Source: Sphingobacterium mizutaii
GTDB lineage: Bacteria > Bacteroidota > Bacteroidia > Sphingobacteriales > Sphingobacteriaceae
Length of the DNA stretch: 64,000 nt
Direction of reading: 5' to 3'
Assembly: GCF_900187125.1 (NCBI RefSeq)
Contig: NZ_LT906468.1
Location: forward strand, 434,001 to 498,000
Below are positions 4,944 to 23,278 of this stretch, one piece after another (position 1 is the stretch's first letter; every line of letters begins with the position of its first letter). Position numbers and translations under genes: made by a program. The notes below the pieces were generated by a model. That model was not told the DNA's origin. It was given only the letters and a program-made list of their open reading frames with translations, and ran no database searches.

Positions 4944-5084
4944 TTTGTTGAGTTTCTGCCGTAAATTTAATATTCTTGTTACAATAAACCGAACTTTTGT
5001 TAAATCTTGTTAAATGCCTGACATAGTAGGCTCTCCTTAACATTATTTAACTGACAAAAGTCTTTAAGGCCTTTTGAATGGTAT

Positions 5085-5092
5085 TACATTTG
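5085..5092 (+). promoter_or_regulatory. Probable -7 promoter element of the HtrA-type gene
   Basis: TACATTTG matches the Bacteroidota -7 consensus TAnnTTTG. No clear TTG lies 19-21 bases upstream, so the match is partial. It predicts a transcript starting near 5096, with a leader of about 40 bases to the ATG at 5134. That would place a possible upstream in-frame TTG start (5074) outside the message. Confidence 0.4.
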
Positions 5093-5133
5093 AATTAGGA
5101 AACATAAATAAAAAAGTTAGATTAATTATAGAT

Positions 5134-6672
5134 ATGAAAAAGATAGGTGCAACTTTATTAGCAGCCATCATAGGAGGAGCCATAGCCGTGGGTGGGTTTA
5201 AGCTCTTTGAAAACAAACAGATGGACAACATGACGTTTGAAGAGCGTCAAAAAGTATATTATGCAAACAACCCTGGTGAAGAGATTCTTTCTTCTACAGG
5301 AAATCCGGATTTTACCCAAGCTGCAGCCGCAGTATCTCCGGGTGTAGTACACATTCAAGTAACAATGGCAAGCCGCGGTAACCGTGGTGGTGGCGGATCG
5401 CCTTTCGATATGTTTGAGGAATTTTTTGGAGTACCACAACAACGCGGTCAGGCTCGTCCTGCAACAGCGTCGGGTTCTGGTGTACTGATCTCTCCTGATG
5501 GCTATATCGTAACCAACAACCACGTAGTGGAAGAGGCAGACAAGATCGAAGTGGTCTTGACCGATAAACGTAAATACGAAGCGAAGGTGATCGGTAGAGA
5601 CCCGAACTTTGACTTGGCCTTGATTAAAGTAAATGCAACTGGCTTACCTATGGTGAAGTTAGGCAACTCAGATAACGTTCAGATTGGCGAGTGGGTTTTA
5701 GCAGTAGGTTATCCACTAGGATTACAATCTACCGTTACAGCCGGTATCATCAGTGCTAAAGGCCGTCGTATCGGTATCTTAGATGAACCGACTCAAGGTC
5801 GTGGTTATGGAGGTATGGGTCAGCAAGAGCAAATGATCAGCAATGCTGTTGAATCATTCTTGCAAACTGACGCCGTGATCAACAGAGGTAACAGTGGTGG
5901 TGCCTTGGTAAACGCTAGAGGTGAATTGATCGGTATCAATTCCGCTATCGCATCTCCAACCGGTACTTATGCTGGATATGGATTCGCTATCCCAATTAAC
6001 CTTGCTAAAAAGATTGTCGATGACTTCAAAGAATTCGGTAGTGTTAAACGTGGTTATGTGGGTGTAACATTTACTGAAATCAACGATCAGTTACGTGCCG
6101 AGAAAGGTATTGAAGATGTAAACGGTCTTTATGTACGTGATGTATTAAAAGGTGGAGCTGCAGAAGCTGCCGGAATTAAATCTGGTGATATCTTGACCAA
6201 GGTTGAAGGCCGCGTAATCTATGGAACTCCAGACCTACAAGAATATGTTGCTCGCTTACGTCCAGGTGATAAAGTGAAGATCACTTACAAACGTGACGGT
6301 AAAGAGAAAGACGTTTCATTGACCTTGAAAGGTGAGGAAAGCAAACCTAAAACAGAAGATTCAGAATCTAGTGCGTCAGCAACAGAGATCTTCAATAAAT
6401 TAGGTGCTAGTTTTGTGCCTGCAAGCAATGCTCGCAAACAAGAATTAGGCATCAAATCCGGTGTAGTTGTTTCACAGGTACACAGAGGTGGTGTATTTGA
6501 ATACTTCGGCGTTGAAAGAGGATTGGTAATTACTGAAGTAAATGGTAAACCAGTAAATAATGTTGATGATGTGGAGTCTGCTCTTGGTAGCACCCGTCGA
6601 GACATCGTCCGTATTACCGGTGTACCTGAAAAAGGAAGTACCGTACAATTCAATGTTCCATTGAAATACTAG
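5134..6672 (+). CDS. Do/HtrA-family periplasmic serine protease with two PDZ domains
   Basis: This is a 512-residue DegP/DegQ/MucD-type quality-control protease. An N-terminal hydrophobic segment (residues 4-22) exports or anchors it in the periplasm. The trypsin-fold triad is complete: His130 in NNHVVEE, Asp160 in NFDLALI and Ser254 in RGNSGGAL. A Gly-rich linker at about 75-95 precedes the protease domain. Two PDZ domains follow, at about 300-400 and 415-505, and should bind unfolded client C-termini. I start the gene at the ATG at 5134: the frame is open to a TTG at 5074, but that codon lies upstream of a likely promoter and would add 20 charged residues before the signal segment. The gene stands alone and ends in a strong terminator. 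Confidence 0.93.
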   Translation: MKKIGATLLAAIIGGAIAVGGFKLFENKQMDNMTFEERQKVYYANNPGEEILSSTGNPDFTQAAAAVSPGVVHIQVTMASRGNRGGGGSPFDMFEEFFGVPQQRGQARPATASGSGVLISPDGYIVTNNHVVEEADKIEVVLTDKRKYEAKVIGRDPNFDLALIKVNATGLPMVKLGNSDNVQIGEWVLAVGYPLGLQSTVTAGIISAKGRRIGILDEPTQGRGYGGMGQQEQMISNAVESFLQTDAVINRGNSGGALVNARGELIGINSAIASPTGTYAGYGFAIPINLAKKIVDDFKEFGSVKRGYVGVTFTEINDQLRAEKGIEDVNGLYVRDVLKGGAAEAAGIKSGDILTKVEGRVIYGTPDLQEYVARLRPGDKVKITYKRDGKEKDVSLTLKGEESKPKTEDSESSASATEIFNKLGASFVPASNARKQELGIKSGVVVSQVHRGGVFEYFGVERGLVITEVNGKPVNNVDDVESALGSTRRDIVRITGVPEKGSTVQFNVPLKY

Positions 6673-10329: not shown

Positions 10330-10434
10330 ATTCTATCCATGTGCGGATGATTGTGCGAAAAGCCACCTTAAATGGGCCGAAGCCGTTACGGATTCGAGTT
10401 GTTTTTGGTATCCGTGAGCTCCTTCGTCGGTTTG

Positions 10435-10459
10435 GTTACTTTTGGGCTTCAAAAGTAAC
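10435..10459. other. Perfect 10-bp hairpin in intergenic DNA
   Basis: gttacttttg (10435-10444) and caaaagtaac (10450-10459) flank the 5-base loop ggctt. It lies 48 bases past the 3' end of the minus-strand gene that stops at 10507, but no T tract follows on either strand. Confidence 0.6.
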
Positions 10460-21473: not shown

Positions 21474-21513
21474 GTAAAAACAGACAAGGTGCTACATGAA
21501 TGTAACACCTTGT
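21474..21513 (-). terminator. Terminator of the sigma factor/protease operon
   Basis: Read on the minus strand, acaaggtg/caccttgt (21506-21513 with 21484-21491) plus an inner 5-bp tacat/atgta pair form a 13-bp interrupted stem with a 2-base loop, followed by CTGTTTTTAC. Confidence 0.75.
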
Positions 21514-21537: not shown

Positions 21538-22611
21538 TTAATAGACCTTGACCATGTAGATAAAGTCTTGCAACTTTTTGATCTGCTCGGTACGAGGTAA
21601 ATTTGATAGGCTATTTTTATTATTCAGAACGATATTTCCTTTTAAGGATTCTTCTGGAATGCGGTTCAATGTTTCGATGAGCGCTTTGGTTTTGATCGCG
21701 AAAGCGGCGCCATCTAGACCTTTTTGTTTACCGGAAATAATACCGATGATATTTCCGTTTTTATCAAGTACAGGACCTCCACTGTTACCAGGGTTTACTG
21801 GAATAGAGATTTGGTAGGCTGTGGTATCCCCACTGTAACCTGTTGAAGAACTCAAGTAACCTTCGCCATATACAGCTTCATCTCTTGGATAACCGATGGT
21901 GTAGATACCTTCACCAAGATCGGTGTTCTGTCTTCTGAATGTATAAGGAATATTTGCAGATTGTGCAATAAAGCTGGAATCTGAAATATGAAGGATCGCT
22001 AGGTCTTTCTCCGAATCAATATGGATAATGGTCGCTTTAAAAGAATCGCCCTTATTGTTTTGAAGATGGATGGAGTCGGCTCCACTCACTACGTGGAAGT
22101 TGGTCACGACGTAGCCATCCTTGGTCAGCATAAAGCCTGTTGCACCAAATTGAAGAGCATCTTGAGGGGCATTGGTTTCCTTGTTGATATTCCTAATGGC
22201 ATTGTGGTGCGCATTGACATTGCGTTTAACGCTATTTATCTCTCTTTTAAGGGCGCTATAATCAGAATTGGCCCTACGCAGTGTAGAAAAATATCCTGTG
22301 GAATATAGCGTCGCTAAAGAAGAAAGAACGGCTACAGCGGCTGCTGCCACGGCATTGATCTTAAGTTTCTTCCACAGTCGGACCACAATGGCCTCAGAAG
22401 GCTGCGCCTGAACGGTTTTTTCTAATTGATTTTTAAACTCAGCACGAGCTTCATGGCGCTTCATGGTTTGCACGAATTCAGCATGCGATAGGAATAGCGC
22501 ATTCAAATCTTGGTCTTGATCGCACAACTGTTCAAAGGAAGCCTTTTCTTGAGGATCCATTTGCCCGTTGATGTAGCGGTCTGCCAATTCTAAAAATTCT
22601 TGCTGTCTCAT
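21538..22611 (-). CDS. Membrane protein: anti-sigma-like domain fused to periplasmic trypsin-like protease
   Basis: A 357-residue fusion. Residues 1-55 (ADRYINGQMDPQEKASFEQL and what follows) resemble the cytoplasmic sigma-binding helices of Bacteroidota anti-sigma factors. A basic stretch and one membrane segment follow (about 85-105), then a coiled-coil linker (112-147). Residues 155-320 are an S1C/HtrA-type protease domain with a complete triad: His173 in TNFHVVSG, Asp203 in SEKDLAIL and Ser277 in NPGNSGGP. No PDZ domain is present, unlike the HtrA protein at 5134. It lies 11 bases downstream of an ECF sigma factor gene, which suggests it holds that sigma factor at the membrane and senses or cleaves something in the periplasm. 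The domain order is seen; the regulatory role is inferred. Confidence 0.85.
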   Translation of the reverse strand: MRQQEFLELADRYINGQMDPQEKASFEQLCDQDQDLNALFLSHAEFVQTMKRHEARAEFKNQLEKTVQAQPSEAIVVRLWKKLKINAVAAAAVAVLSSLATLYSTGYFSTLRRANSDYSALKREINSVKRNVNAHHNAIRNINKETNAPQDALQFGATGFMLTKDGYVVTNFHVVSGADSIHLQNNKGDSFKATIIHIDSEKDLAILHISDSSFIAQSANIPYTFRRQNTDLGEGIYTIGYPRDEAVYGEGYLSSSTGYSGDTTAYQISIPVNPGNSGGPVLDKNGNIIGIISGKQKGLDGAAFAIKTKALIETLNRIPEESLKGNIVLNNKNSLSNLPRTEQIKKLQDFIYMVKVY

Positions 22612-22622
22612 TTCAACTTTTA

Positions 22623-23207
22623 CTAATCAGATTTTTGATCAAAGAAAAGCTTCTTCAATCGTTGTAAACATTTATATTTCTGAGTTTTCGCGTTGTCCGT
22701 ATTGGTGTAACCAAACTTTTCGCAGATTTCATTCATCGATTTATTCCTGATGTAGAAATCCTTTAAGATCGTTTGGCAAGGTTCTCCTAGTTGACTCATT
22801 GCGCTGTCCATTTTTGAGAAGTCATTTTCTTTCTCGATATGGCTTTGTATGTCGCTTTCAACATCGGCTATCTCCAATCCCTCGGTGTCAGAAGTACCCA
22901 TGCTGTTGCTCCTTTTGTTCAATTGCTTTAACCACAATCGCCTACATACTGCATACAGGAACGTACTTAACTTACTGCTGAGCTCGAAATTCTCATGAGT
23001 AACTTTATCGTACAATACCATGACCGCTTCTTGAAATATATCCTTGGCTTCATTCTCAGTACCTTTGTTGCCAGTAATAAGATGGGATACGGAAGGATAG
23101 CAGATTTGATAGATGTCGGAAATTACTGTATTGTCCCCTTTTCGCAAACCTTCCAGTAGTTCCTTGTCCTCACGGGTCTTTGGTAATATTTGTCTTATTT
23201 TACTCAC
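22623..23207 (-). CDS. ECF-type RNA polymerase sigma factor
   Basis: A 194-residue sigma-70 family factor with region 2 at about 20-95 (NEAKDIFQEAVMVLYDK, then LSTFLYAVCRRLW) and region 4 at about 130-190 (LGEPCQTILKDFYIRNKSMN and the helix-turn-helix EICEKFGYTNTDNAKTQKYK). It should direct polymerase to envelope-related or stress genes. It is the first gene of a two-gene operon with the anti-sigma/protease fusion. Its own promoter is of the ordinary housekeeping type, so no autoregulation is evident. Confidence 0.93.
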   Translation of the reverse strand: MSKIRQILPKTREDKELLEGLRKGDNTVISDIYQICYPSVSHLITGNKGTENEAKDIFQEAVMVLYDKVTHENFELSSKLSTFLYAVCRRLWLKQLNKRSNSMGTSDTEGLEIADVESDIQSHIEKENDFSKMDSAMSQLGEPCQTILKDFYIRNKSMNEICEKFGYTNTDNAKTQKYKCLQRLKKLFFDQKSD

Positions 23208-23278
23208 TTATTAATACCCTAATTTTCAAATAGTAACCCAAGAATTGTTAAAATTTTTGTTATTTGTGATTTCGTTTC

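Follow-up and report, generated by a model that had tools for sequence, protein, structure and literature searches.

The E. coli sigma-E pathway (RpoE, RseA, DegS, RseP and ClpXP) couples an ECF sigma factor to a membrane anti-sigma factor and an HtrA-type periplasmic protease. HtrA proteases form trimers whose state changes when a ligand binds, as has been established for DegS. The RsgI anti-sigma factors of Clostridium thermocellum are single-span proteins with large extracytoplasmic domains, for which self-cleavage comes first (PMC12203970); XAA motifs in the membrane helix of RsgI proteins provide the ends that ClpXP recognises after RseP has cut (PMC12203970). In E. coli FecR, RseP cleaves in the membrane region (PMC8144685). 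Among Bacteroidota, a recognised class I anti-sigma neighbour is found for 6% of ECF sigma factors, against 32% over all phyla (PMC7406223), and with so few such neighbours the control of these sigma factors is largely open.

In Sphingobacterium mizutaii, an ECF sigma factor gene is followed by a gene encoding a predicted anti-sigma domain fused, through a membrane helix and a coiled coil, to a trypsin-like protease of the HtrA type. We consider it reasonably probable that the two genes form a membrane-linked sigma system in which the anti-sigma factor bears its own periplasmic protease. The system is a variation on the known theme of sigma factor, anti-sigma factor and regulated proteolysis. 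It is conserved in a large group of soil bacteria and apparently undescribed: the open-access literature searched yielded no description of an anti-sigma/trypsin-like fusion, and an ECF classification outside that scope may list it. The predicted regulon, which is new here and goes beyond an earlier sequence-only reading of this DNA, is the most informative part of the analysis.

The sigma factor and fusion genes

Both genes lie on the minus strand of the window (the whole stretch of DNA that was analysed, 64,000 nucleotides in length). The sigma factor gene (22623–23207; 194 aa, GTG start) is upstream, and the fusion gene (21538–22611; 357 aa), defined by its ORF, domain matches, an AlphaFold2 model and fold matches, follows after a gap of 11 bases; both ORFs, and the short spacing claimed for them in the sequence-only reading, were found at these coordinates. 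The terminator which that reading assigned to the pair was also located, as an intrinsic terminator on the minus strand (21484–21513), directly 3′ of the second gene. The sigma protein passes the curated cut-off of the NCBIfam sigma70-ECF model (1.8e-18), and its region-4 signature, GYTNADNAKNQKYKCLQRLKKLFF, is nearly invariant.

The fusion is present as a single copy in its 4.65-Mb genome, with nearest named homologues that are 86–87% identical. It is a near-universal single-copy gene in Sphingobacteriaceae, where 137 of 151 genomes have one homologue each (three of them as fragments only). In a sample of 395 Bacteroidota genomes, it occurs in 29, from four families of one class, and a separate search with a sigma-factor profile returned exactly the same 29 genomes (scores of at least 231 bits, followed by a gap down to 155). 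In every one of the 64 full-length loci that allowed a search for it, the sigma gene lies directly upstream of the fusion; this set includes near-duplicates. The link between sigma factor and protease on which the sequence-only reading was built is thus seen both in the survey of the domain pair across Bacteroidota and at every searchable full-length locus. Its conservation in Sphingobacteriaceae, Chitinophagaceae and two other families shows that the pair is real and not a chance association.

Some of the sigma factor's more distant relatives in other Bacteroidota (L268, L272, L274 and L276) have no adjoining anti-sigma-like gene. Their genes precede those of small secreted proteins, several of which contain Cys-x-x-Cys.

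The fusion protein

Domain matches, AlphaFold2 and the sequence itself bear out the layout of membrane helix, coiled coil and trypsin-like protease, all parts of which are encoded on the minus strand. The N-terminal cytoplasmic, anti-sigma-like domain (residues 1–75; 22387–22611) was defined by a profile match and by helices that AlphaFold2 places at residues 3–14, 20–32 and 34–69 with pLDDT 89–98. It is followed by a single transmembrane helix at about residues 83–105 (22297–22365), recognised from the sequence and modelled at 75–104, the cytoplasmic end of which carries an XAA-type motif identified by alignment, V88-A-A-A-A92 (22336–22350). The coiled-coil segment (residues 117–142; 22186–22263) has a clean heptad, L121-I125-V128-V132-H135-I139-I142, and coincides with a low-confidence AlphaFold2 helix at 118–140. 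The trypsin/HtrA-type protease domain (residues 155–318, or 155–316 in the model; 21658–22149) matches Trypsin_2 at residues 157–291 (4.8e-23), and its best fold matches among solved structures are HtrA1, PDZ-deleted DegS and MucD (E ~1e-12). The catalytic triad is intact, as described earlier: H173 (codon 22093–22095), D203 (22003–22005) and S277 (21781–21783) are exact in the fusion and invariant in 56 of 56 aligned homologues. The reported absence of a PDZ domain also held, with no domain match in the fusion and no PDZ-sized C-terminal domain in the AlphaFold2 model. No match to the FecR domain (PF04773) was found in the fusion.

Where a PDZ domain would be, the protein ends in a conserved tail, QIKKLQDFIYMVKVY (21541–21600), modelled as a helix and a strand at residues 340–356. 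Proteins of the same protease subfamily with other N termini (L011–L016) are secreted, have no sigma neighbour and carry the same tail. The tail is probably structural, because it is present in these sigma-less relatives too, and a role as a signalling peptide was rejected on the same ground. An ordinary HtrA/DegP-type protease, with PDZ-like C-terminal repeats by sequence, is encoded about 15 kb away in the window (5074–6672).

Profile comparisons indicate that the N-terminal domain is very probably an anti-sigma domain of a zinc-less kind. The comparison set consisted of the downstream partners of the next-nearest sigma relatives, which come from other families of Bacteroidota. Several of these partners are anti-sigma-like, with the same layout and other periplasmic parts; partners from more distant families carry zinc-finger cysteines, and one of them passes the zf-HC2 gathering score. 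Against the anti-sigma-like partners, hhalign gave 97.5% (E 8.3e-12) for the N-terminal domain alone and 97.3% (E 2.2e-11) for the domain with the membrane helix, compared with 0.1% for a negative control against the sigma family. The profile of domain plus membrane helix also matched the genome's own FecR-type anti-sigma proteins (91.8%, E 7.4e-7), a value that fell to only 37.7% when the helix was left out. The HxxxCxxC zinc motif (class I, zf-HC2) is in none of the homologues. Curated anti-sigma models matched weakly, in 24 of the 56 homologues (best 1.7e-6) and in 8 of 38 when the N-terminal 75 residues were taken alone, in every case below the cut-offs, and a search of PDB sequences with a profile of the N-terminal domain matched no anti-sigma chain. 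Nuclear-receptor helices returned by that search were judged chance helical matches. The anti-sigma resemblance claimed in the sequence-only reading is thus upheld by homology to the partners of related sigma factors, but not by assignment to a curated anti-sigma family or by a match to a solved anti-sigma structure.

We also modelled the S. humi sigma factor and fusion with AlphaFold2 as a read-through, in which the genes are separated by a 21-base in-frame gap and the stop was read as Gly; the model has good local confidence, and a fold search with it returned protease matches only. In two genomes of one family (L072 and L075), the fusion is without the first two helices of the putative anti-sigma domain, but helix three, the Ala-Ala in the membrane helix and the protease are retained, as is the upstream sigma gene.

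This Ala-Ala, formed by A90 and A91, is invariant in 56 of 56 homologues within the context V/I-A-A-S/A/T, and most of the genome's FecR-type proteins have a similar Ala-Ala where their membrane helix begins. A single M50 protease of the RseP type, with PDZ domains, is encoded in the genome. By analogy with RsgI, the invariant Ala-Ala suggests processing by RseP and ClpXP. Because it points to these later steps, release of the sigma factor probably does not occur in one step.

Predicted promoter and regulon

A scan for sigma-70-type promoters gave 11 matches against 9.8 in shuffles, which is chance level, and a comparative motif was therefore used instead. This motif, GGGTTAC-N15/16-GTATTAA, is found upstream of the sigma gene in nearly all species, across genera. 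In the window, the predicted operon promoter (23211–23239, minus strand) consists of a −35 element GGGTTAC (23233–23239), a 15-base spacer and a −10 element GTATTAA (23211–23217). A putative promoter is present, as had been claimed, but it is an ECF-type element and not one of the sigma-70 type. The −10 element ends 3 bases before the GTG start of the sigma gene, so the operon mRNA may be leaderless.

The only other perfect 13-base match in the genome lies 45 bases before the gene for a 72-aa lipoprotein (1016649–1016867 of contig C1), about 560 kb from the sigma operon. A search of one genome allowing two mismatches gave 116 matches, against 237 for a reversed control; as this is noise, we relied on exact matches and cross-species evidence. 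Genomes of the same genus mostly show both kinds of site, the sigma promoter and the lipoprotein promoter. In Chitinophagaceae and several genera of Sphingobacteriaceae, a lipoprotein of 58–93 aa adjoins the sigma gene in divergent orientation, often with the same promoter as the sigma gene.

The lipoprotein-type promoter pattern has such a lipoprotein just downstream in 53 of the 57 loci inspected. An automatic count also gave 53; from it, L187 (a CBM48-like protein) was taken out and L192 (whose true start lies further in) was added. It is present in 17 of the 29 sigma-bearing genomes and in 0 of 366 other Bacteroidota genomes (Fisher p 2e-22, shared ancestry ignored). Within Sphingobacteriaceae, the corresponding counts are 103 of 137 and 0 of 14 (Fisher p 2e-8, shared ancestry again ignored). 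A reversed control of the pattern gave almost no matches. About a quarter of the sigma-bearing Sphingobacteriaceae genomes have no match to the exact pattern, presumably owing to sequence drift. In all likelihood, the regulon predicted from these sites comprises the system's own operon and a small lipoprotein, or a few of them, with many copies of an O-glycosylation motif, and the sigma/anti-sigma system is probably self-regulating.

The motif in question, D-S/T-A/I/L/M/T/V, is that of Bacteroidota O-glycosylation, the role of which is still unclear (PMC12871550). In 73 predicted lipoproteins, the mature part of which averages 47 residues, there are 5.1 copies per mature part against 0.9 in shuffles, although many copies lie in repeats and are thus not independent counts. 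The lipoproteins are predicted to be O-glycosylated.

Several further features of these promoters were noted. At L173 and L187 (genomes G295 and G272), the lipoprotein-type promoter lies 22–30 bases before the gene for a 96-aa CBM48/AMPK-glycogen-binding-like protein, which may be a second target of the sigma factor. In several genomes, lipoprotein genes are arranged in short tandem arrays (L053, L061–L064, L184/L195/L197 and L279), with a promoter copy each. Finally, a near-perfect 26-base palindrome, GGTTACTTTTGGGCTCCAAAAGTAAC, at 10434–10459 of the window is a REP-like element with more than 10 near-identical copies in the genome, and resembles half of the promoter motif.

Proposed mechanism and comparison with known systems

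In the mechanism that we propose, the N-terminal domain would tether the ECF sigma factor to the inner membrane, as homology and gene linkage suggest, with the coiled coil and the HtrA-type domain in the periplasm, probably as a trimer by analogy. An envelope signal would switch the protease on. Its most likely target (site 1) would be the stretch that joins the membrane helix to the protease domain, either in its own chain or in that of an adjacent subunit. RseP would then cleave the membrane helix near the invariant Ala-Ala and ClpXP would degrade the N-terminal fragment, freeing the sigma factor; these steps are proposed by analogy with those for RseA, FecR and RsgI. On the evidence of sequence and co-occurrence, the freed sigma factor is predicted to activate GGGTTAC-N15/16-GTATTAA promoters, namely those of its own operon and of the lipoprotein gene or genes. 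Self-cleavage is a plausible trigger, and we regard the identity of the fusion's own protease with the site-1 protease as an evenly balanced proposition. The complete signal chain in one polypeptide, in which a trimeric, periplasmic HtrA-like sensor of envelope state cuts its own anti-sigma stalk and RseP and ClpXP free a sigma factor that serves almost exclusively a small lipoprotein with dense O-glycosylation, is put forward tentatively, as a serious candidate that falls somewhat short of probable.

The point at issue is what the protease cuts. Sigma-less secreted relatives of the same subfamily and with the same tail (L011–L016) exist, which implies that the ancestral job of the protease was not anti-sigma cleavage, and at least one further HtrA-type protease, that encoded at 5074–6672 of the window, could act at site 1. 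The fusion might therefore be an anti-sigma factor that is cut by a different site-1 protease, while its own protease serves other periplasmic substrates as an output enzyme, in quality control or lipoprotein processing, with a state merely coupled to that of the sigma factor. However, the protease stands where the periplasmic sensor region is found in other anti-sigma factors, and the locus is linked to no separate gene for a dedicated site-1 protease, so that we consider this account rather unlikely.

Cleavage of the anti-sigma factor might also be dispensable. HtrA trimers such as DegS change state with ligand, and the coiled coil joins the protease domain to the membrane helix; a domain that senses unfolded or mislocalised proteins could, upon binding them, alter the trimer and release the sigma factor with the anti-sigma factor uncut. 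Such a pure sensor would have no need of the full triad, which is invariant in the 56 homologues, and the invariant membrane Ala-Ala suggests intramembrane cleavage, making this possibility improbable. Highly improbable is the case in which the N-terminal domain is something other than an anti-sigma domain and the protease is the membrane-anchored product of a target gene co-transcribed with the sigma gene: the below-cut-off matches to curated models and the PDB search without an anti-sigma match would agree with it, but profile comparison ties the domain to the anti-sigma-like proteins that accompany related sigma factors (E 8.3e-12), those proteins have the same gene order and membrane-helix signature, and the sigma factor and fusion co-occur strictly one to one.

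Because the promoter is defined and the predicted regulon very small, the signal, the proteolytic trigger and the output of the system are each testable with one reporter. The system also connects what is probably a circuit for envelope responses with lipoproteins in which the O-glycosylation motif abounds.

Among described proteases, the fusion's protease domain resembles those of the MarP family (1.2e-24) and of HtrA/DegP (2.4e-25), but with scores far below the family cut-offs, and the fusion has no PDZ domain, another anchor and another N terminus. The anti-sigma-like partners in other Bacteroidota (L265–L267, L269–L271, L273 and L275) share its gene order, a homologous N-terminal domain and the membrane signature; they differ in their periplasmic parts and, in the more distant ones, in having zinc-finger cysteines. 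The FecR-type anti-sigma factors of Bacteroidota are alike in the profile of domain plus membrane helix and in the Ala-Ala at the helix start, whereas FecR proteins have a periplasmic FecR domain where the fusion has its protease, and work with TonB-dependent transporters. RsgI of C. thermocellum shares the XAA motif in the membrane helix (PMC12203970), but its self-cleavage is an autocleavage within the periplasmic domain in which no trypsin-like serine protease takes part; it pairs with sigma-I and senses carbohydrate, whereas the fusion pairs with an ECF sigma factor. With the E. coli sigma-E pathway, the locus has in common the three kinds of component named at the outset, the availability of RseP and a protease domain with PDZ-deleted DegS among its best fold matches. 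It differs in that anti-sigma factor and protease are one polypeptide, without a PDZ domain and with a tiny predicted regulon, and, if the proposed mechanism is true, it would give Bacteroidota an envelope response that departs from the sigma-E design of proteobacteria.
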